From contig JAGBLN010000045.1 of the NCBI GenBank assembly GCA_017635395.1, positions 21,146 through 85,145 on the forward strand: 64,000 nt of DNA. Reading direction: 5' to 3'. The DNA is from Lachnospiraceae bacterium (GTDB lineage: Bacteria > Bacillota > Clostridia > Lachnospirales > Lachnospiraceae). The position numbers were made by a program, and so were the translations under genes. The notes under the pieces are model-generated. The model did no database searches. It saw only the letters and a list, made by a program, of their open reading frames with translations, and had not been told where the DNA came from. Below are positions 14,167 through 41,300 of the stretch, in pieces. The number at the start of each line of letters is the position of its first letter. Position 1 is the first letter of the stretch.

Positions 14167-14706
14167 CTAGTGTATCGAAATAACCTTGGATGCTTCATTA
14201 TCCGGATCTTCAAGAGCCTTCCATGCATTAGCATCACTTCCAGACGGTCCCGCATGTATCTGCTTTTTTCCGGTATTGTCAGTATTGGTTATCCACATTG
14301 CCAGCGGATTGTCCGCACTGCCCTTATACTGTACATATATAGTACTTGAGGAATTGTGCGTTGATTTTATTTCATTGATATAATTTGCCTGACTGAAGTC
14401 GCTCCATCCCAGCGTATCCAGCGCCTCTTTTGCAAATAATGTGGATGTATCAATCTCATCAAGCTTCATTGGTGCATCTGCCATCTTTGCTATTTCTTCC
14501 ATAGAATCAGACCGCTGCACGACATCCGGATCAGTCGAAGCATATGTGACAGCCGCATATATGGAATTAAGCATCTGTATATCAGAAGATATCTTTGCTT
14601 TTTCAATATACCTAATCAGTATCGGTGCCATAACAGCAACCAGGATAGCCATTATAGCAATAACAATTATTAGTTCTACAAGCGAAAAACCTTTATCCTT
14701 TTTCAT
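14167..14706 (-). CDS. Orphan type IV prepilin
   Basis: A 179-residue type IV pilin or pseudopilin outside the pil cluster. Class III signal: short basic leader MKKDKG, cleavage before Phe, Glu at +5 (FSLVE), then a hydrophobic helix (IIVIAIMAILVAVMAPILI). The stretch after the helix (YIEKAKISSD) resembles the major pilin of the pil cluster at 44643-45131 (YIEKSKIRKD), so the two look paralogous. The C-terminal domain is polar with no Cys pair. ATG preceded by GGGGAGAGGG. It has its own terminator and seems monocistronic, about 30 kb from the assembly genes that would be needed. Confidence 0.88.
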   Translation of the reverse strand: MKKDKGFSLVELIIVIAIMAILVAVMAPILIRYIEKAKISSDIQMLNSIYAAVTYASTDPDVVQRSDSMEEIAKMADAPMKLDEIDTSTLFAKEALDTLGWSDFSQANYINEIKSTHNSSSTIYVQYKGSADNPLAMWITNTDNTGKKQIHAGPSGSDANAWKALEDPDNEASKVISIH

Positions 14707-14965
14707 ATTCTTTCCCTCTCCCCGTAAATGCCATTCCGATGACGCTTTACATAAAAAAACCGATTCAGCCTTTCCGCGCCACCATTGGCCACCCCCCGGC
14801 TTCCTCTTGATTAAAATATACCACCACAGTAGACATAATAAAAGATTTCTTTATATCTCTTTTTTCTTGACTCATGGAATAAATGCCCTTAAAATACCTA
14901 TGTTGCAGCGATAATTCCGTCTGCAATGCAATCATCAAATACGATTTTCCATTAGGAGGAACAAA

Positions 14966-30650: not shown

Positions 30651-31658
30651 TTATGCATTATCATCAGTATCCGAAGCTACGGTATCCGCATTTTCTGTTT
30701 CCAATGCTTCAGTTTCTTCCCCTGAATCCTCGGACTTCTCCGCTGTTTCTGCGGCAGCCTCTGATGAAGCTGCTTCCGTTGCGGTTTCTGAAGGAACCTC
30801 ATCCTCTGATGATGTTTCAGTACTCTCTGACACTGCCTCAGCACTTTCTGAAGCGTCCGCTTCTGCATCACTGCTGTCAGCCTTTGATTCTGTACCTGAA
30901 ACAGGCGTTACAGCCTCAGCCGCCTTATCTGCAGCTGTCTCCTGAACCGGAACCTCCTCCTGAACAGGCGCTGCCTGTTCTGCCGCAGCCTTCTCCTGTT
31001 TAGCCTGCTCGTCAGCAATGATCTTCTGGAGGGCCTTACGGTACTGGTCTATACCGTCAGCAAAGCTTTCATCAAGAAAACCTTTCTCGAAATCACTCAT
31101 ATCGTCATACTCTGCCACAACAGCAGATGCCGCATTGAAATAATCCTTTGTCATAAGAGAAGGTGCCGGAAGCTTCTTTATGGCTTCTATAAGATCATCT
31201 GCCCTGTCAGACGCTGCCACATATCTGTCGCTTACGACAGTCTTAAGGTCGTTTATGGAATACAGGGAACCGTCAATTGAAAGATATGCCTTTCCTTCTT
31301 CATAGGTCACATAGTCAACCACGCCTGATACCTCATCAGTATTGCCGGCGTCATCCCTTACGCTCATGATAACAGTCTTGCCTGTCAGGCTGTCTGCCTT
31401 CATTGCATTCATATTATCGCCTATAGCCTGTACCTCCGACACCTGCGTGAATGTCGCATACTGGCTGATCCACTCTGTATTGGATGTAGGCTCAAGAGGA
31501 TCCTGATTCTGCATTTCTGCTACTAGCAACGTAAGGAAAGCCTCGGAATCAATCTGCGACTTATCCTTTTCTGAAGCTGACGCAAGCGACTTGCTGGAAG
31601 CAGTGCTGCTCTGTACTTTTCCGTCTACTACGGGAGCTACCAGACCTTTTATATCCAT
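30651..31658 (-). CDS. flgD: Flagellar hook assembly protein FlgD with acidic tail
   Basis: Hook cap protein needed to polymerise FlgE. 335 residues. Residues 35-100 hold the conserved FlgD core (FLTLLVAEMQNQDPLEP...AIGDNMNAMKADSLTGK), followed by a short beta domain (about 100-145) and a helical segment. Residues 218-335 are a very acidic Ala/Glu/Ser/Thr-rich tail with no counterpart in textbook FlgD (about 220-230 residues), probably disordered. AGGAGG precedes the ATG. It starts 43 nt after the TAA that closes the extended fliK frame. Confidence 0.92.
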   Translation of the reverse strand: MDIKGLVAPVVDGKVQSSTASSKSLASASEKDKSQIDSEAFLTLLVAEMQNQDPLEPTSNTEWISQYATFTQVSEVQAIGDNMNAMKADSLTGKTVIMSVRDDAGNTDEVSGVVDYVTYEEGKAYLSIDGSLYSINDLKTVVSDRYVAASDRADDLIEAIKKLPAPSLMTKDYFNAASAVVAEYDDMSDFEKGFLDESFADGIDQYRKALQKIIADEQAKQEKAAAEQAAPVQEEVPVQETAADKAAEAVTPVSGTESKADSSDAEADASESAEAVSESTETSSEDEVPSETATEAASSEAAAETAEKSEDSGEETEALETENADTVASDTDDNA

Positions 31659-31701: not shown

Positions 31702-31878
31702 TTAAATCCTGTAATCCATCTTGTTTCCGTCTGCCTGCATCATCTGTGCTGTAACGGCATCTGCTTCATCTATATCTTCCGGTATGCCTGCAAAGTCACC
31801 CAGATCAATCTTCCTGGTGGCACGCCTGAGCCTTTCCTGCTCGCTTGCCTCCGCATCTGACTGGCCGTCATTTCCCTA
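31702..31878 (-). pseudogene. In-frame continuation of fliK beyond an amber codon
   Basis: Reading on past the fliK TAG (31878-31876) in the same frame gives 57 further codons to a TAA at 31704-31702. The encoded tail (starts GNDGQSDAEASEQERLRRAT, then KIDLGDFAG, ends with QMMQADGNKMDYRI) is acidic, free of rare-looking codons and ends 43 nt before flgD. As I recall, FliK proteins of related Lachnospiraceae end in a similar RRATRKI...AQMM..NGN..D tail, which suggests the TAG is a recent nonsense change, a sequencing error or a read-through site. Confidence 0.75.
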
Positions 31879-33189
31879 TTCGAGATTCTGCTCAAAAGCA
31901 TGGGATGAAACAGTAACTTCAACAGCATCAATCTTAACACCCTGCTCCTCAAGGTTCTGCTTGAGCACCATTATCTGGCTTTCAAGTGCAGCCCTGGCAG
32001 CCTCAGTCTCCGTTGAAAACTGAGCAGTAACCACGCCGGACTTACTGACAAGATTGATTGCCACATTACCGAGGCTTGCCGGATGAAGGCTTAATTCCAG
32101 GGATGAAAAATCATCCTTTACCTGGGATTTTATCTTCTCTATTACCTGCTCTGCTACTTCGGCAGGATTGCTCAGATAGCTCTGAGGCCTTGCTTCCGCT
32201 GTCGGCTCTGCCAGCCCCGGCTCCTGTACGCTTACCGCATCCTGTGCATTGCCTGCGGTGTGGACATCATGCCTTACATCGTGCCTGTTATCACGCTTTA
32301 CGGTATTATTTGCATCAGACGGCGTATTGCTTTCATCGCCTGCATCATCAGCATCATTATTATCATTTTGTGTATTAAGCGCAGCATTTTCAACAGGCAC
32401 AGTATCCTCTGGAATATCTGCTGCCTGAACAAGGCTTTCTGCATTAGGCACTTCATCTGTTTCTACTGCTGCCTGAACGTCTTCTGTTCCTGCAGCAATC
32501 ACATCCATAACTTCGCTTACTTCAGCCGGTTCCAGTCCTGCTTCCTCCAGAACCTCGACTACCATCTTGTTAAGTTCTCCTGCAGTATCCAATATGTTCT
32601 GATCGGTCAGCAGGCTCTCAACACCTCCATCTCCCATTACATCTGCCGCAAGCATATTCATATTCTCCGGCATTACAAGGTCTGCTGTGGAAATTGTCAG
32701 ATCTTCACAGGCTTGAACGATTTCTGGAACATCTACATTCAGTATCTCTGCGGTCTTTTCAACGATCACATCAATCACCTGTATTACTGCTTCGATTTCC
32801 TTCTCATCAACAACAGCATCCGCTGCAGTATCGTTGATTTCTTCTACAGTTCCCGCCTTGCTTTCATCCTTTGCGGACACCTTATCTGATGTACCAGATT
32901 TTGAAACATTATCATTCGATGAGCTTTTCTCATTCTTAACATCAGACTTATCATAAGACTTTTTGTCCGCAGAAACACCTGCAGACGAACTGTCCTTACT
33001 GTTGCCTGAAAAATTACTGCTGTCTGTCTGGATATCCCGGTTCTGAAAATTGATCTGGCCGGTGGCATTTGCGAATGCACTCTTGAAATCAGCTGTCTGG
33101 CCATTACGGGACGAACTTCCATTCCTGTCCATACCGTCCGTAATGTTATTGACCAGCATCTGGCTGTTAAGATCGCTTATAGATGTCAT
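31876..33189 (-). CDS. fliK: Flagellar hook-length control protein FliK (ends at an in-frame amber)
   Basis: Exported molecular ruler that measures the hook and switches export specificity through FlhB. 437 residues to the TAG. The long Ser/Asp/Glu/Ala-rich N-terminal part (1-345) is low complexity, as usual for the ruler. The C-terminal Flg_hook domain (about 350-430; SLELSLHPASLGNVAINLV...FSTETEAARAALE) is complete before the stop. Start is the ATG at 33189 with AAGGAG 7 nt upstream, six codons inside the open frame. The frame continues 57 codons past the TAG, see the separate entry. Located between the MotE-like gene and flgD, the normal position. Confidence 0.88.
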   Translation of the reverse strand: MTSISDLNSQMLVNNITDGMDRNGSSSRNGQTADFKSAFANATGQINFQNRDIQTDSSNFSGNSKDSSSAGVSADKKSYDKSDVKNEKSSSNDNVSKSGTSDKVSAKDESKAGTVEEINDTAADAVVDEKEIEAVIQVIDVIVEKTAEILNVDVPEIVQACEDLTISTADLVMPENMNMLAADVMGDGGVESLLTDQNILDTAGELNKMVVEVLEEAGLEPAEVSEVMDVIAAGTEDVQAAVETDEVPNAESLVQAADIPEDTVPVENAALNTQNDNNDADDAGDESNTPSDANNTVKRDNRHDVRHDVHTAGNAQDAVSVQEPGLAEPTAEARPQSYLSNPAEVAEQVIEKIKSQVKDDFSSLELSLHPASLGNVAINLVSKSGVVTAQFSTETEAARAALESQIMVLKQNLEEQGVKIDAVEVTVSSHAFEQNLE

Positions 33190-33336: not shown

Positions 33337-34194
33337 TCAGTCAGGGTCCATTATCCTTGTCACCTGAGCTGCCATTTCCGGATCCATCGCTCCAAGTATC
33401 GCACCGCGCTGGGCACTGTTCATTGCCCCCAGTATCTTTCCTACAAGGTCGAGGGACGAGCCCATGGTATTGAATATCTCCGCTGCATCCTTGGGCTCCA
33501 TAGCAGCATACGCAGCCGCATAATCCGTTATCTCAGCATCAACAGCTTCCTTCTTTACCACTTCCTGGTAAAGGTACTGGGCTGTCTCAGGATCCATGCT
33601 CTCATAATACTTCCTGTAAGCATCCTCCCCCGGGCCGTTGTCCGCATAAACCACTTCCTCATAGAATTCGGTCTTTATACGCTGGAACTCTGTCTGCTGA
33701 TCCTCGAAGGTCTTTAATCTGTTTACCTCAGCCTTGAGCTCCTCTATCTGCTGTACATAAGTACCATTGGCAGTCTGTGCACTGGTAAGTTCAAGTTCCA
33801 GTGCCTGTATCTGCGCTACCGCATCAGCAAGTGAGGAATAGCCGTAATATGCCTCCAGGTCATCCGTTTCCGTCACGCCGTCACTTGGAAGCACTTTATT
33901 TATAACTGGAACATTTCCTATGACAGGACGGAGCACATTGGAACCCAGCCCTCCCACATCAAGCTTTATCAGGATACAGATTATGCCGATCCAGATAAGG
34001 ACTATGAATACGGTAACCAGTATCATGGACAGTCCGCCGCCGGGGGCATCATCATCCAGGTCAGCCTCTTTGTCAGCCAGTTCCTTGGCCCTTTTTTTAG
34101 CCTCTTTGCTCTGGGCTTTCTGTTCTGCCCTGAGTTTCTTCTTTTCCTCGGCTAATTTCTTTTTTTCCGCTTTTATATCAATTTCCTGTGCCAT
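33337..34194 (-). CDS. MotE-like flagellar operon protein (MgtE N-terminal-like domain)
   Basis: 285 residues. A highly basic/acidic N-terminus (1-48, Lys/Glu/Ala-rich), one membrane segment (about 54-77), a coiled coil (about 120-170) and a C-terminal MgtE-N-like helical domain (AAAYAAMEPKDAAEIFNTMG ... ILGAMDPEMAAQVTRIMDPD). This domain order matches MotE, a stator chaperone described in some bacteria, and the unnamed protein that lies between fliJ and fliK in many Clostridia. It lacks the transport domain of MgtE, so it is not a magnesium transporter. GGAGAAG precedes the ATG. Confidence 0.8.
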   Translation of the reverse strand: MAQEIDIKAEKKKLAEEKKKLRAEQKAQSKEAKKRAKELADKEADLDDDAPGGGLSMILVTVFIVLIWIGIICILIKLDVGGLGSNVLRPVIGNVPVINKVLPSDGVTETDDLEAYYGYSSLADAVAQIQALELELTSAQTANGTYVQQIEELKAEVNRLKTFEDQQTEFQRIKTEFYEEVVYADNGPGEDAYRKYYESMDPETAQYLYQEVVKKEAVDAEITDYAAAYAAMEPKDAAEIFNTMGSSLDLVGKILGAMNSAQRGAILGAMDPEMAAQVTRIMDPD

Positions 34195-34275
34195 ATATCT
34201 TCTCCGTGATTTCGCCTCCGGTGTGCAGACGAATAACTACAGCTTTGTCAAAGTCAGACTGTTTCAAGCTTCACG

Positions 34276-34731
34276 CTACTCCTGATCCGCTTTCTTTGCC
34301 CCATATACATAGCTGGTCAGCTGATCTACCTCCAGTGACTCAGCAGCAGCTTCCTCGCTCATGAATTCTTCAAAAGCATTTTCCTTAAGCTTTTCGTGTA
34401 TCTTTCTTTCCTTTACAGCGTCCTCCATACGGGCGCGCGCATTCTCAAGGTTTTTCTGGGCCACCTTTACCTTAAGCTTCTGTTTTTTTATTTCTTCTTT
34501 GTTGTATTTCTGCTCATATTCATTTTCCATGATATGGCGTATATCCAGGTCGCCGTTCCGAAGCCTTGCCGATTCTGCTTCAAGCTCCGCGGCTCTCATA
34601 TTCAATGCTGCGAGCTTATCCTCCTCGTCATTCAGTATCTTCCGGCGCTCCGCAAAGGCCTGTTTTGCCTGCTCTTCAAAATTCTCCATCAGGTTCAGGA
34701 TATTCTGAAGCCTGTAATTAAACTTTGCCAT
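34276..34731 (-). CDS. fliJ: Flagellar export chaperone FliJ
   Basis: General chaperone and coiled-coil stalk of the FliI-FliH export ATPase. 151 residues, almost entirely predicted coiled coil with strong heptads and charged residues, the normal FliJ size and character (FNYRLQNILNLMENFEEQAKQ start). ATG overlaps the fliI stop by one base (TGATG), as is common for this pair. GGAG precedes it inside fliI. Confidence 0.9.
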   Translation of the reverse strand: MAKFNYRLQNILNLMENFEEQAKQAFAERRKILNDEEDKLAALNMRAAELEAESARLRNGDLDIRHIMENEYEQKYNKEEIKKQKLKVKVAQKNLENARARMEDAVKERKIHEKLKENAFEEFMSEEAAAESLEVDQLTSYVYGAKKADQE

Positions 34732-36038
34732 CAGCCATCTCCGAACAGCTTGTTCATCATGCCTACGGTATCTTCGAATTCAAACTTGTCTTCAACATCC
34801 TGACAGAGAAAATCATTCACTGCATCTATCTTTGATATTGCATAGTCAATCCTTGGATTAGAGCCCTTCTTATATGCGCCTATATTTATCAAGTCCTCTG
34901 AGTCGTTATAGGTAGCCATGACATTCTTGAGCTCGCCTGCCAGCTTCCGGTGCTCCTTCGTGGTCACCATACTCATACATCTCGATATGGACTGGAGCAC
35001 ATCCACAGCCGGATAATGGTTCCTGTGGGCCAATTTCCTGTTAAGCATTATATGGCCGTCAAGTATACTTCTGGCTGTATCTGTTATAGGCTCATTAAAA
35101 TCATCACCATCTACAAGTACTGCATAAAGTCCGGTGATAGATCCTTTATCGCTCTTTCCAGCCCGTTCAAGGAGCTTGGGCATTTCGGAATAAACCGACG
35201 GCGGATAGCCTCTTGTAACAGGGGGTTCGCCTATGGCAAGGCCTATCTCACGCTGTGCCATGGAGAAACGGGTAAGGTTGTCCATCATGAGAAGCACATC
35301 CTTGCCCTGATCCCTGAAATACTCAGCAATGGCTGTAGCGGTCTGGGCGGCCTTCTTTCTTTCAAGAGCAGGCTTATCGGAAGTCGCCACCACTACCACA
35401 GATCTTTTTAAACCTTCTGCGCCAAGATCCCTTTCTATAAACTCCCGCACTTCCCTGCCTCGCTCTCCTATGAGCGCGATAACATTGAGCTCTGCCCTGG
35501 TATTCCTTGCAAACATACCCATGAGGGTTGACTTACCCACACCGGAACCTGCAAATATTCCTATCCTCTGTCCCTTGCCCACGGTGATCAGTCCGTCGAC
35601 AGACTTAACCCCCAAGGGCAGCGGCTCGTTGATTATAGACCTGGTCATTGCGTCAGGGCTTGCGGCTTCCAAGGGATACCAGGTCTCACCCACAGGGGTA
35701 AAATCACTTACAGGCCTCCCCAGCCCATCTAAAACCTGACCCAAAAGAAAATCCCCAACCTGTACGGAAAGGGGATGCTCCTCATTTTCAACTATGCAGC
35801 CGGAGCCTATCCCTTCAGTCTCTTCATAAGGCATGAGCAGAGTCATGTTCTTCTTGAACCCCACCACTTCGGACATTATCACCCTGCCGTCCGTGGTAGT
35901 GATCTTGCACATATCGCCCATCTTGGCATCAGGCCCTGCGCTTTCCAGCGTAAGCCCCACCACATTTACTATCTTGCCTAATTTTCTATAATATACTCTG
36001 CCGGCAGCATCGTATTTATCAAGATTAATCTCTGACAT
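34731..36038 (-). CDS. fliI: Flagellum-specific ATPase FliI
   Basis: Cytosolic hexameric ATPase energising flagellar protein export, related to the F1 beta subunit. 435 residues. Walker A AGSGVGKST at 163-171, the GERGREVREF segment near 194-203, Walker B VLLMMDNLTR near 250, and the conserved AIGEPPVTRGYPPSVY loop. Starts 2 nt after the fliH stop and overlaps fliJ. Confidence 0.96.
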   Translation of the reverse strand: MSEINLDKYDAAGRVYYRKLGKIVNVVGLTLESAGPDAKMGDMCKITTTDGRVIMSEVVGFKKNMTLLMPYEETEGIGSGCIVENEEHPLSVQVGDFLLGQVLDGLGRPVSDFTPVGETWYPLEAASPDAMTRSIINEPLPLGVKSVDGLITVGKGQRIGIFAGSGVGKSTLMGMFARNTRAELNVIALIGERGREVREFIERDLGAEGLKRSVVVVATSDKPALERKKAAQTATAIAEYFRDQGKDVLLMMDNLTRFSMAQREIGLAIGEPPVTRGYPPSVYSEMPKLLERAGKSDKGSITGLYAVLVDGDDFNEPITDTARSILDGHIMLNRKLAHRNHYPAVDVLQSISRCMSMVTTKEHRKLAGELKNVMATYNDSEDLINIGAYKKGSNPRIDYAISKIDAVNDFLCQDVEDKFEFEDTVGMMNKLFGDG

Positions 36039-36040
36039 CT

Positions 36041-36892
36041 TTATGGCTCATAACTAAGTATGCGAAGTTGTTTTTCCAACAGATCCATCTGCGTCCCTAA
36101 ACCGCAGTCCCATATTCCGCCGTCTGATTCAATCAGGCAGTCATTCGGCTTCAGGGTAGCATCCTCTATTACCTCAAAACGGTCCGGCATGATACCGGTT
36201 CCCTTTGCGATATTCTCCTTTATCAGCTGTACATTCACATAGTCAGCTGCGGATACATGAACTATATAATTCCTGCTGCCGTCCAGATTGGTAAGCACTC
36301 TTTTTAAGAGATAGGCGATAGTCTCCTTATCATCTTCCAGCCTTACTCCTGTCACCTTTGCGAAAATCCCGCTCAGCTTATCTATCAGCAGAGGCTCAAG
36401 CGCCCTGCTTTTTTCTTCATATTCCTTCTGGAGTTTCTGTCTTTCAACTTCCAGTTCCTGCTGTAGCTTTTCGTATTTCTCAAGGCCTGCCCGTTCGCCT
36501 TCCTGTCTGCCTGCTTCAAAGCCCTCAGCATGGCCTTTCTGCCTGGCTTCCTCTGTCACGGATTCAGCTTCTTTTTTGGCATCTTCAATGATAGCCTCTG
36601 CATTTTCCTTTGCTTCATCTATCATTGCCTGGGCCTGAGCCGCGGAAAGCGCACTGTTTTCATGTATTATCGGCCCGTTTTCCTCTTCGTCCTCCCGGTC
36701 AGAAACAAGCCGCTCAACCATTTCAGCATCAAGCCCTTCGGAAAAGCCTTCCTCTATTGCCTCAGGCTCTTCTTCCTGCATATGGGTAGCCAGTTCTTCA
36801 AGACGCCTTGCTATCCTGTCATTGGCATCTATCTTGACTACCTTTACATCGTTCAGCTTTACATTGTATCCTTTGACAAAATTCGATGACAA
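36041..36892 (-). CDS. fliH: Flagellar export ATPase regulator FliH
   Basis: Negative regulator/stator of FliI. 283 residues. Residues 1-80 are variable and acidic, about 85-165 form a coiled coil with Ala/Glu-rich GxxxG-like repeats (EGFEAGRQEGERAGLEKYE), and the C-terminal third is the conserved FliH/V-ATPase E-like domain. The start codon is TTG at 36892, supported by TAGGAG 6 nt upstream; no better ATG exists before the conserved part. A dispersed 31-bp repeat abuts this ribosome binding site. Confidence 0.88.
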   Translation of the reverse strand: MSSNFVKGYNVKLNDVKVVKIDANDRIARRLEELATHMQEEEPEAIEEGFSEGLDAEMVERLVSDREDEEENGPIIHENSALSAAQAQAMIDEAKENAEAIIEDAKKEAESVTEEARQKGHAEGFEAGRQEGERAGLEKYEKLQQELEVERQKLQKEYEEKSRALEPLLIDKLSGIFAKVTGVRLEDDKETIAYLLKRVLTNLDGSRNYIVHVSAADYVNVQLIKENIAKGTGIMPDRFEVIEDATLKPNDCLIESDGGIWDCGLGTQMDLLEKQLRILSYEP

Positions 36893-36902
36893 AACGCGCT
36901 CC

Positions 36903-36933
36903 TACGCCCTCAGCAACAAGTACTTCAGGCTAT
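36903..36933. repeat. Dispersed 31-bp repeat, copy 2
   Basis: Copy of 9048-9078 (27 of 31 identical) in the 59-nt fliG-fliH spacer. On the minus strand its base changes keep most stem pairs as G-U. Its end overlaps the TAGGAG ribosome binding site of fliH, so folding could affect fliH translation. Confidence 0.7.
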
Positions 36934-36951
36934 TCCGAATAAATACCACTA

Positions 36952-37965
36952 TTAAACAATGATATCGTCGCCGCCGCCTCTGGATATTACTATCTCACCG
37001 GCATCCTCGAGCTTTCTTATCTCATTAACGATCTTCTGCTGTGCATCTTCAACATCCTTCATACGCACAGGTCCCATGAATTCCATATCTTCCTTGATCA
37101 TATCAGCAAGACGCTGTGAAAGGTTCTTGAATATCTTGCCCTGTACTTCCTCGTTAGCACCCTTAAGCGCAAGGGACAGCTCATTGTTCTCAACATCCCT
37201 GAGTACACGCTGCACAGCCTTATCATCAAGCTGCATAATATCCTCAAATACGAACATCTTCTTCTTGATCTCATCAGCAAGCTCAGGATCCTCGATGCCC
37301 AGGATCTCCATGATATGCTTTTCAGTACCACGGTCAGTGGAATTGAGAATTTCAACAACCTGATCAACACCGCCAATCTGGGTGTAATCCTGATTAACCA
37401 GATTAGCCAGCTTGCTTTCAAGAACTCGTTCTACTTCCTGTATAACATCAGGGCTGGTCCTGTCCATGGTTGCAATACGCCTGGCAACATCCGCCTGGGA
37501 ATCAGAAGGAAGCGCTGACAAGATAAGCGCCGCCTGATTAGAGGAAAGATACGAAAGTATAAGTGCTATAGTCTGGGGATGCTCATCCTGAATAAAGGAA
37601 AGCAGCTGGGAAGCATCTGTTTTCCTTACAAACTCGAAAGGCTTAACCTGCAGGGATGCTGTAAGCTTTCCGATAACATCCAATGCCTTATCAGCACCGA
37701 GCGCCTTCTCTAACAGCTCCTTGGCGTAGCCAATACCACCTTCTGCAATATACTGCTGAGCCAGACAGATTTCATAAAACTCATTTATGACATCTTCTTT
37801 AATCTGCGGCGATATGCTTCTTGTATTTGCTATCTCTAATGTAAGGTCCTCTATTTCCTCTTCTTTCAGATGCTTAAAGACCGTAGCAGAAGTCTCCGGT
37901 CCCAGCGTTATAAGCAATATAGCAGCTTTTTGAAGTCCTGAAAGATTACTACCTTCCGAAGCCAT
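36952..37965 (-). CDS. fliG: Flagellar motor switch protein FliG
   Basis: Rotor protein linking MS ring and stators. 337 residues, typical. N-terminal FliF-binding domain (LSGLQKAAILLITLGPETSATVFKHL), middle domain with the EHPQTIALILSYL motif at about 128-140, and C-terminal torque domain with the conserved charged helix (LALKGANEEVQGKIFKNLSQR) carrying Lys/Arg/Asp/Glu residues. GAGAGG precedes the ATG. Follows fliF by 24 nt. Confidence 0.97.
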   Translation of the reverse strand: MASEGSNLSGLQKAAILLITLGPETSATVFKHLKEEEIEDLTLEIANTRSISPQIKEDVINEFYEICLAQQYIAEGGIGYAKELLEKALGADKALDVIGKLTASLQVKPFEFVRKTDASQLLSFIQDEHPQTIALILSYLSSNQAALILSALPSDSQADVARRIATMDRTSPDVIQEVERVLESKLANLVNQDYTQIGGVDQVVEILNSTDRGTEKHIMEILGIEDPELADEIKKKMFVFEDIMQLDDKAVQRVLRDVENNELSLALKGANEEVQGKIFKNLSQRLADMIKEDMEFMGPVRMKDVEDAQQKIVNEIRKLEDAGEIVISRGGGDDIIV

Positions 37966-37989
37966 TTTAATCCTCTCTTTTAACTATTA

Positions 37990-39594
37990 TTACAGATCTT
38001 CATTAAACCAGTTACGCAGCAGGTTTGCGGCCGCGTCCGGATTGTCTTCCACAAATTTCTCGACAATCTTCCTGGCTTCAGATTTATCCTCTACGCCGAT
38101 CTCCTCAAGCTCTTCCTGAGGCGTGGACTGAAGTATCTCATCGATGGAAACTTCAGGCTCAGGCTCCTCTTCCCTTGCCTGGCGCATGCTGCGCAGGATA
38201 ACGAATGCCAGCAGGCCCAGGATAAGAAGTATGAGCAGAACTGTAAGGATATCTGTTATATCCATTGCCAGACCTTCGTGATCAACAAAGAAAGGCTCCT
38301 CGTACGAAAGAATGGTTATATGTTCCACGCCTATACCGGTGGCTGTAGATACTGCCTGCACAAGATCCGGATCAACCTCCAGCTTTGTGCGTACATCATT
38401 ATTAAGCTTGTACTGATCCCAACTGATACCCTCAAGCAGACCCTGATCCTTTACATCATCCTCACGGATCACCTTGTATGTAAGGGTGGTCACGGAAAGC
38501 GATGACTCATCATACTTTATGGCACCTGCAGGTATCTGCTGCAGAAGAGTGGACTCATTAGGCAGGTAGTCATAGGACTCCTCCACTACATGAGCATTTG
38601 AATATTCATTATCCTCATATTCATAGCCAGTCTCAGTATTGGAATCTGTTCCCGGCACGCCGGATACTCCGCCGCTAGAGTCAGACTGGTAAATATCTTT
38701 GCTGGCAAGCACACCCTGATCCTTGTCCTCATCAGGCCAGTACAGATGGTTTGCCTTTTCCGTATAACTATTATCAAGCACGACATTTACAGCCGCCTCA
38801 ATGGACGAAAACTGATTGGTAGCTGTCAGTACCCTGATAACTTCAGAACGCATGCTGTTAGCCACCTGTTCCTGAAGAGCATACTGGCTTGATGCAGAAC
38901 CATATGTGGAATTATCATTAGTTCCCGCAAAAAGCAGATTGCCGTCGCTGTCAAGGATGGTAACATGCTCGGTCGTGTCATTTCCCAATGCAGTAGCAAC
39001 AAACCTTGCTATAGCCTCCGCATTTTCCCTGGTACACACATCTGAAAGATCTAAGTTTACGGCAGCATAAGCTTCCTTGTTCTGTGCGATCAGTGTACCG
39101 TTTTCCTCAGGAAGGCTTAACTGTACTGAAGCCTTATTTACGAAACTGTAGGACTCAAGTTCTTCCTCCATGAAATCCTGCAGATAAACAATATACCTCT
39201 TCTGCGTATTTGACTCAGTGGTGAAGAAATTACCGTTCGTCACATTGTCTATGGACATAGCATCCGTAGAAATGTTATTGGAGCCAAGAAGAAGATTAGC
39301 CTTGGTATAATCCTTACGGTTTATGCTGATTTCCAGGCCATCCTCACTGGTCACATAGACGATATTTTCGCCTTCCAGCAGTGCAATGACCTCATTGGCC
39401 TGCTTGGCATTCTCGGCGGTATATATCTTTACATACTCAGGACGGGTAACAGCAAAAATAAGCACGGCAAAGGCGAATACCGTTGCTATGGCAATTGCTA
39501 CGATAGTGATTTTCTGTCTGCGTGAAAATTTCTCCCACCACTCCAAAAGCCTCTGGGGGAGTGCCCTGAACCACGCAACTATTCGATCTACCAT
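37990..39594 (-). CDS. fliF: Flagellar MS-ring protein FliF
   Basis: Forms the membrane MS ring that seeds the basal body. 534 residues. Membrane segments at about 26-48 and 441-463, with YscJ-like ring-building motifs between them (EVIALLEGENIVY, QKRYIVYLQDFMEEELESY, ASVQLSLPEE). The C-terminal cytosolic tail ends in the acidic FliG-binding helix (ARKIVEKFVEDNPDAAANLLRNWFNED). AAAGGA precedes the ATG. Confidence 0.97.
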   Translation of the reverse strand: MVDRIVAWFRALPQRLLEWWEKFSRRQKITIVAIAIATVFAFAVLIFAVTRPEYVKIYTAENAKQANEVIALLEGENIVYVTSEDGLEISINRKDYTKANLLLGSNNISTDAMSIDNVTNGNFFTTESNTQKRYIVYLQDFMEEELESYSFVNKASVQLSLPEENGTLIAQNKEAYAAVNLDLSDVCTRENAEAIARFVATALGNDTTEHVTILDSDGNLLFAGTNDNSTYGSASSQYALQEQVANSMRSEVIRVLTATNQFSSIEAAVNVVLDNSYTEKANHLYWPDEDKDQGVLASKDIYQSDSSGGVSGVPGTDSNTETGYEYEDNEYSNAHVVEESYDYLPNESTLLQQIPAGAIKYDESSLSVTTLTYKVIREDDVKDQGLLEGISWDQYKLNNDVRTKLEVDPDLVQAVSTATGIGVEHITILSYEEPFFVDHEGLAMDITDILTVLLILLILGLLAFVILRSMRQAREEEPEPEVSIDEILQSTPQEELEEIGVEDKSEARKIVEKFVEDNPDAAANLLRNWFNEDL

Positions 39595-39651
39595 TTGCTT
39601 GTCCTTTCCTTGACTCTGTCAGGCCAGCATTTATGCGATGCCAGTCCCATA

Positions 39652-39975
39652 TTATATCTGCATATTGATTAACGTCCTGTATGACTCCATAAATGCATTT
39701 TTTACAGCCACAGTATACTGCAGTGATGTAGAGGCTTTCTGAAGCGCCACAGCCAGGTCATGAGTACTTGTAGCCTCGCCCATTGCAAGTTTTATCTCTT
39801 CATTTTCAGCCTGTGACAGATATCCGTTGGTCTGATTGACATTGCTGATCATAGAATTAAAAATTGCGCCGAACATATCGTCATCTTCTTTTTCCCTGAT
39901 CATGCTGCGTTCTGTCAGCGGCTCTATTGTTCTCAGGTTATCCCTGAATACATTTGTTGCATTTATCGGTCCCAT
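39652..39975 (-). CDS. fliE: Flagellar hook-basal body complex protein FliE
   Basis: Small export-gate-to-rod adaptor linking MS ring and proximal rod. 107 residues, normal length. The C-terminal half has the conserved FliE pattern (GEATSTHDLAVALQKASTSLQYTVAVKNAFMESYRTLINMQI). GAGGT lies before the ATG. Sits in the standard flgB-flgC-fliE-fliF order. Confidence 0.95.
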   Translation of the reverse strand: MGPINATNVFRDNLRTIEPLTERSMIREKEDDDMFGAIFNSMISNVNQTNGYLSQAENEEIKLAMGEATSTHDLAVALQKASTSLQYTVAVKNAFMESYRTLINMQI

Positions 39976-39999
39976 GGATCATACCTCTAATAATTTAAA

Positions 40000-40503
40000 T
40001 CAGGATTTTGCAGTAAGCTCCAGCCCCTTGGTTGCCATTGCTTTGCTTGCGCTAAACACAGTCGCATTTGCCTCATAGGCCCTTGACGCATCTATAAGGT
40101 TGGTCATCTCAGTAACAGTATTTACATTGGGATAAGTCACATAACCGTTCTCGTCCGCATCAGGATGGGAAGGATCGTAAACCATATTCATCTGGGTATC
40201 ATCATCCTCATGGATATCGTCAATCTTGACACCATAGCCTATCATGTCATCAGCAATTGCATGACGGCCTATCCTCTGCTGTGTACGTCCATCACCAACA
40301 ATGGAATTAAGCACCCTTCCGAAATGCCTTCTGTCCGCCTCGGTCTCCTGGGTTGCAAAAGTTACCACCTTACGTCTATAGGGAGTCCCGTCAGCAGTGC
40401 GGGTGGTATTGGCATTAGCCACATTCTCCGCAATGGTATCCATACGGTAACGCTCAGCGGTAAGTCCCGTGGCCGATATATCAAAAGCTGTAAACATTCC
40501 CAT
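40000..40503 (-). CDS. flgC: Flagellar basal-body rod protein FlgC
   Basis: Proximal rod subunit. 167 residues, slightly longer than the typical 135-150 because of an inserted loop in the middle. N-terminal rod signature (FDISATGLTAERYRMDTIAENVANANT) and C-terminal helix (NTVTEMTNLIDASRAYEANATVFSASKAMATKGLEL) are clear. GGAGG precedes the ATG; 16 nt after flgB. Confidence 0.95.
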   Translation of the reverse strand: MGMFTAFDISATGLTAERYRMDTIAENVANANTTRTADGTPYRRKVVTFATQETEADRRHFGRVLNSIVGDGRTQQRIGRHAIADDMIGYGVKIDDIHEDDDTQMNMVYDPSHPDADENGYVTYPNVNTVTEMTNLIDASRAYEANATVFSASKAMATKGLELTAKS

Positions 40504-40519
40504 GAATTATTTCCTCCAA

Positions 40520-40912
40520 TCAGGTGGACATTGCCGTCCGCAGGTTTGAAAACTCATTCTGCATGCAGCTAACCAGTGCATTGTATGTGATCTGGTTTTC
40601 TGCAAGATACACATTTTCGGTATCTACATCTACATTATTTCCATCCATACGGTAGCTGTAGTCAAAAGCATCCGTATAAACCCTGGGCTCAATCCTAGAC
40701 AGCTGCAGGTTATACACGCGCTGGTCCAGATTGTCATACTCGACTTTATTAAGCACCCTGGTAAATTCTTCCTCAAATGACACATCCTGACGCTTGTAAC
40801 CGGGAGTGTCAGCATTTGCTATGTTGTTTGATATTGCTTCATTCCTAAGCCAGGCTGCATCCGCGGCCTTATCAAGGGCATCTACGTATGAAAAAACATG
40901 TCCGTTTACCAC
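40520..40912 (-). CDS. flgB: Flagellar basal-body rod protein FlgB
   Basis: Proximal rod subunit, first gene of the operon. 130 residues from a GTG start at 40912, which has AAGGAGG 5 nt upstream; the open frame runs 26 codons further, but that part has no ribosome binding site and no FlgB similarity. Contains the rod signature LRNEAISNNIANADTPGYKR and the C-terminal helix (TYNALVSCMQNEFSNLRTAM). Confidence 0.93.
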   Translation of the reverse strand: MVNGHVFSYVDALDKAADAAWLRNEAISNNIANADTPGYKRQDVSFEEEFTRVLNKVEYDNLDQRVYNLQLSRIEPRVYTDAFDYSYRMDGNNVDVDTENVYLAENQITYNALVSCMQNEFSNLRTAMST

Positions 40913-41300
40913 TCTCTCCTCCTTGCCGACGGCGCCTCCAAAGTATAAAAAAATACACGGTTGCAATCCGTCTAACCCGAATGCATCCATGCATTATCGA
41001 AAACAACCTGTCCTTGTTGTCCCACAACGTATGAGTCCTAAGGCCCTCATACATATTATATCGGCTTAGCTTATAAATTTGTGTACAGTTTTCCGACTTC
41101 AAAATTATGGATAATTGATAGCAGTTATGCTCAATTACCCATAAATATCTTATGTACACTAATATTATAATGTTTTCAACATAAAATACAAGTGAAAATT
41201 GTGTTATTTCAACTAAATATTGCTTTATTTATGCAAAAACCACACCATATATTGTAATATGGTGTGGCCTTTACGGTTTACATAACCCTATGTTTTCTAT
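40913..41300 (-). promoter_or_regulatory. Flagellar operon promoter region and codY terminator
   Basis: 388 nt without a gene. The codY terminator is at 41239-41268. On the minus strand TATAAT at 41060-41055 overlaps GCCGATAT at 41065-41058, seven of eight bases of the sigma-28 -10 element, but the -35 for either factor is poor. A second TATAAT with TTGTAT 16 nt upstream lies near 41166-41193. The flgB operon must start here; which sigma factor is used cannot be settled by eye. Confidence 0.45.
41239..41268 (-). terminator. Terminator of codY
   Basis: Perfect CCACACCATAT/ATATGGTGTGG stem with a 6-nt loop, followed on the minus strand by TTTTTG; about 35 nt past the codY stop. Confidence 0.85.

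Follow-up and report, generated by a model that had tools for sequence, protein, structure and literature searches.

The closest described system is the FliK protein of Salmonella. According to PMC6972891, its core (residues 268-352) binds FlhB and its tail (residues 353-405) is disordered. In PMC10965912, residues 301-350 and the five C-terminal residues are reported to be important for export switching, and the suppressors described there include A405V, which alters the final residue of the protein. Furthermore, a 2026 proposal has the switch flipped by an action of the last five FliK residues on the cleaved FlhB part (PMC13344023). In the literature, we found no paper linking a fliK nonsense mutation with polyhooks, or a fliK stop codon with Lachnospiraceae.

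We analysed a stretch of 64,000 nucleotides (the window) from a Lachnospiraceae bacterium, which lies on contig C37 of a draft genome (G000; 2.10 Mb, 58 contigs, 72.6% complete). The fliK gene of the window is encoded on the minus strand. It starts with the ATG at 33189 and reaches an in-frame TAG at 31878-31876, which is codon 438, after 437 residues; the gene as it stands thus occupies 31876..33189. When the frame was translated with X at the stop, it remained open for 57 more codons up to a TAA at 31704-31702, and position 31702, the lower end of the stretch singled out in an earlier note on this DNA, is the final base of that TAA. This continuation including the TAA (31702..31875, minus strand) would be untranslated unless the TAG is read through. 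The earlier note had reported the TAG inside fliK and the 57-codon continuation to TAA, and both were borne out by the sequence and its translation. The next gene, flgD (30651..31658, minus strand), is an open frame starting at 31658; the TAA is separated from it by 43 nt and the TAG by 217 nt. These figures had been given correctly, but the accompanying view of 43 nt as the normal spacing was not supported: in the seven relatives measured, the distance from the fliK stop to flgD was 119, 113, 206, 18, 13, 12, and 211 nt, and the argument fails because both 43 and 217 are near gaps found among these relatives.

Upstream of fliK, a gene with a weak collar-protein match, fliJ, fliI, fliH, fliG, fliF, fliE, flgC, and flgB follow at 33337..40990 on the minus strand, and all of them are open. 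The gene between fliJ and fliK (33337-34194, minus strand) matched the FlbB collar protein with only 24 bits against a cut-off of 110; we presume that it is possibly MotE-like.

Pfam PF02120 (Flg_hook, the T3S4 domain) matched residues 351-429 of the encoded protein over profile positions 2-80 of 85 (E 7.9e-17), with a score of 61.3 bits against the curated cut-off of 29.8. The solved FliK domain of PDB 2rrl was aligned to residues 352-434, and an NCBIfam profile search gave no match to a FliK model at E 0.001. Judging from the Pfam and 2rrl matches, the TAG, which is nine residues beyond the end of the Pfam match, lies just beyond the folded switch domain. The gene is also located in the flagellar hook/basal-body operon, ahead of flgD. 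The protein therefore shares with the FliK proteins of PF02120 both the Flg_hook domain above the cut-off and the flagellar operon context, whereas the final 58 residues of the relatives' protein are missing owing to the TAG. The C-terminal tail with its terminal motif, a feature outside the PF02120 definition and common to the relatives read, is present in the relatives, and in the window it is found only behind the TAG. The window protein is a truncated FliK rather than a member of a different family.

The FliK domain was then searched for in 60 genomes, consisting of the genome itself, 34 genomes of the same genus, one other member of the family, and 24 members of the order. The domain turned up in 56 of them: the genome itself, 33 of the 34 same-genus genomes, the family member from outside the genus, and 21 of the 24 order members. 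The same-genus genome giving no match (G011, 72% complete) was left out of the counts. Reading outside the genus covered 13 of the 22 matches, namely 12 of the 21 order members plus the single other member of the family, and the phylum was represented by the best-scoring 30 of 84 other genomes with a Flg_hook match. The codon homologous to the TAG was a sense codon in all 33 same-genus FliK sequences (glutamine in 32 and glutamate in one), and the same tail continued to the same endpoint in every one of them. Three close relatives, 97-99% identical over the FliK domain, also kept the tail. FliK ended at the position of the TAG in none of the 33 same-genus sequences, none of the 13 others in the order, and none of the best 30 of 84 from the phylum; in these last 30, the domain match was followed by 43-67 residues. 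The stop is private to this draft genome among the genomes examined. As would be expected of a nonsense allele, it is absent in the relatives while the ancestral continuation is conserved.

These comparisons also bear on the earlier note, which had described FliK as truncated relative to its relatives and had pointed to relatives ending naturally at this position as what would remove that argument. None of the relatives ends there, and the truncation stands. In addition, the tail motif that the note had attributed to relatives is real: all 33 same-genus sequences carry an invariant MM and DG close to the C-terminus. It is the alignment with the same-genus relatives, rather than the gap to flgD, that is the real evidence for a truncation.

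Beyond the genus, the tail could not be aligned along most of its length and only its end was alike. The last five residues followed a pattern: hydrophobic at the first position, D or N at the second, aromatic, aliphatic, or H at the third, unrestricted at the fourth, and A, V, or I at the last. This pattern was written after the tails had been inspected, and the counts are descriptive: it was found in 13 of 13 order-level sequences, 21 of the 30 phylum-level sequences (the best 30 of 84), and 29 of 33 same-genus sequences, being missed in 9 of 30 and 4 of 33. As a background, 5 of 2279 other positions in the final 60 residues of the 43 proteins read outside the genus fitted it. Two narrower patterns gave counts of 13, 19, and 25 and of 13, 14, and 25 for the order, phylum, and same-genus sets, respectively. 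The terminal motif of the relatives' tails resembles that of E. coli K-12 FliK, the C-terminus of which is VDIFA. In the window, the site of the motif is formed by the last five codons of the tail (MDYRI; 31705..31719, minus strand), as judged by translation and motif comparison, and the Salmonella counterpart is important for the switch according to PMC10965912. Compared with Salmonella FliK as described in PMC10965912 and PMC6972891, the window protein is missing the counterpart of the disordered end, including the last five residues. The truncation leaves the folded switch domain in place and takes away the tail together with its conserved last five residues.

Subsequently, selection on the tail was examined by comparing the window with the relatives. 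Against three close relatives, the tail showed 17-23 synonymous and 2-6 nonsynonymous differences, corresponding to a nonsynonymous/synonymous ratio of 0.02-0.09, and the ratio in the domain before the tail was 0.02-0.03. In the comparison with G003, the ratio was 0.091 in the tail versus 0.018 in the domain; with the more distant G004 and G027, it was 0.28-0.34 versus about 0.22. The tail thus appears to be constrained, though somewhat less than the preceding domain, and since its ratios are above those of the domain, part of the tail may tolerate change. Two differences from G026 and G034 were observed in the tail, both of them in the last two residues, conservative, and within the variation of the genus. 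The tail is ancestral and was formerly under purifying selection. If the tail is assumed to have been neutral since the stop arose, the stop would account for no more than roughly 6-13% of the branch leading to the relatives; this bound is rough, as it was obtained with the Jukes-Cantor correction at near-saturated sites, with half of the distance given to the window branch and two changes counted. Because the tail still looks constrained, the stop is recent, false, or read through. The constraint fits a young mutation, a consensus error, and read-through alike, and the first two need no further assumption.

A false stop is the main rival to a recent mutation. The TAG would then be a miscalled base or a minority allele chosen by the assembler, and the FliK of the organism would be intact. 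This explanation is consistent with the incompleteness and the many contigs of the draft, with a stop that is private and confined to a single codon, and with a tail that looks functional behind it; moreover, a draft gives one consensus base, which would be the same for an error or for a minority variant. We therefore looked at how often in-frame stops occur elsewhere in the assembly. When the longest non-overlapping open reading frames (ORFs) were used to compare the genes of the window with those of the close relatives G026, G034, and G003 (49, 26, and 28 gene comparisons, respectively), the fliK TAG was the sole in-frame stop, and it was detected against all three. An unfiltered ORF comparison gave many other ORFs with in-frame stops, which as a group were presumed to be antisense or overlapping shadow ORFs. 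In the filtered comparison, an 83-aa ORF of G026, perhaps not a gene, matched window positions 14702-14963 in two pieces with 71% coverage.

On the other contigs of the genome, 130 comparisons over 110 ORFs revealed no confirmed stop inside a gene. In-frame stops were flagged in three of the 130, two of them upstream of the likely start and the third in a 108-aa ORF that lies opposite open frames and was judged to be a shadow. Two more comparisons had low coverage; one was at the edge of the examined stretch, and the other was opposite an open 157-aa gene and was also judged to be a shadow. A further three of the 130 comparisons matched none of the chosen ORFs of the genome. Since no other in-frame stop was confirmed, either in the window genes with relatives or in the 110 other ORFs, the assembly is not rich in errors at this level, although a single error could still have occurred at this codon. 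With this evidence on either side, we consider a consensus error or a mixture somewhat unlikely, yet a serious competitor.

The same comparisons bear on the state of the flagellar genes. flgE, flgD, fliJ, fliI, fliH, fliG, fliF, fliE, flgC, and flgB were open and recognisable, and decay of the whole flagellar cluster was ruled out because no other in-frame stop was present. FlhB was full length, contained the NPTH site, and was 97-98% identical to that of two relatives; there is accordingly no obvious compensating loss, and compensation through loss of the C-terminal part of FlhB was ruled out. Three Flagellin_N matches were found in the genome, as against four in each of two relatives.

We also considered some degree of read-through at the amber codon, which would give a short and a long FliK and tune hook length. 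General recoding of TAG was ruled out by an intact release factor RF1 and by the use of TAG as a normal stop. Of the 50 window ORFs overlapped by genes of relatives, 10 end in TAG, fliK included, and one runs off the window; an ORF was counted here if the match of a relative's gene overlapped it on the same strand, with no requirement on frame. RF1 was full length (511.7 bits against the TIGR00019 cut-off of 423.25) and adjoined prmC, and RF2 was full length and above its family cut-off. The view in the earlier note that TAG is a normal stop elsewhere and that recoding is unlikely agrees with these results. The 28 tRNA loci read included none with a CUA anticodon; this tRNA set is incomplete and also lacks tRNAs for Ala, Cys, Ile, Lys, Phe, and Tyr. 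Two matches to pyrrolysine synthetase were weak and neither was above the cut-off in this 72.6% complete genome, and a pyrrolysine system is improbable for the genome as assembled.

Read-through would also produce the intact and constrained tail behind the stop, and a suppressor tRNA could be encoded in the missing quarter of the genome, given that tRNAs for the six amino acids were not found either. On the other hand, the stop is found in none of the 33 same-genus relatives and is not conserved between species, RF1 is intact, and neither a CUA anticodon nor a synthetase above the cut-off was detected. Taken together, these findings make read-through very improbable. The same low standing is given to its fuller version, in which a real amber, fixed in the species, undergoes partial read-through; most FliK would then be short and switch-weak, and a minority long and switch-competent. 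If this were true, the ratio of short to long FliK would set the frequency of hook completion, and hence flagellar number or hook length.

Reversible switching of fliK by phase variation is scarcely credible. Around the stop, the repeat search detected neither direct repeat families nor tandem arrays; it found one imperfect 12-nt inverted pair, 92% complementary, at 31535-31546 and 32069-32080. The pair flanks the stop, but its arms are 522 nt apart and such pairs often arise by chance. Moreover, the difference from the relatives is one codon, and the lesion occurs in no relative.

Two further Flg_hook matches were observed in the genome. A second, distant FliK-like protein is encoded at C1:35718-37949, where a 651-residue open frame scored 29.8 bits, which is at the cut-off. 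This gene is followed by one for a 97-aa protein resembling the C-terminal domain of FlhB, which is also found in G034 and G026. We take this pair to resemble the YlqG/YlqH (FlhX) pair of Bacillus. The genome thus possesses a pair of the YlqG/YlqH type, but at a separate locus with no evident connection to the TAG. The third match (C24:15148-15348, 33.6 bits) is in a 1022-residue open frame just upstream of a flagellin match at C24:15528.

Another alternative is that the short FliK works well enough, with the core alone switching export in this lineage and the tail being dispensable. The folded switch domain is indeed nearly complete over the Pfam profile, and the distant FliK-like protein and its small partner resembling the FlhB C-terminus might help. 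However, every one of the 33 FliK proteins found within the genus has the tail, the end of which is conserved beyond the genus too, and the occurrence of the FlhB-like member of the second pair in G034 and G026 argues against a compensation peculiar to this genome. We regard a functional short form as quite improbable. Neither it nor read-through has positive support of its own.

Of the four options raised in the earlier note, a nonsense mutation and an assembly error are retained. Phase variation is left with one chance-like inverted pair in the repeat search, and read-through with a stop in one genome only, no suppressor tRNA found, and RF1 present; neither has gained positive evidence. The observation is confirmed, and it is most likely of an ordinary kind rather than a new regulatory device. 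Our best reading, which we consider probable, is a recent nonsense substitution in fliK of the sampled strain or population that is predicted to weaken or abolish the switch from hook to filament. Under this reading, the substitution would have created the TAG, and translation would stop there to give a FliK of 437 residues that retains the ruler region along with the folded switch domain but lacks the C-terminal tail. By analogy with Salmonella, the short FliK would still be produced and exported, and its core may still contact FlhB, and the switch would trip poorly without the terminal residues. Hooks would then run on as polyhooks, with few or no filaments and with motility poor or absent. 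The predicted phenotype is transferred from Salmonella, a distant organism; the effects in Salmonella are laboratory measurements and that in the window FliK is a prediction, and the similarity to 2rrl is weak (E 0.0012).

With a recent nonsense substitution as the probable explanation, the use of the finding would be that of a natural truncation separating the folded switch domain of FliK from its tail. In addition, it points to a short motif at the C-terminus of FliK, located where the last five residues of the Salmonella protein lie and shared by Lachnospirales-type relatives, much of the phylum sample, and E. coli K-12.
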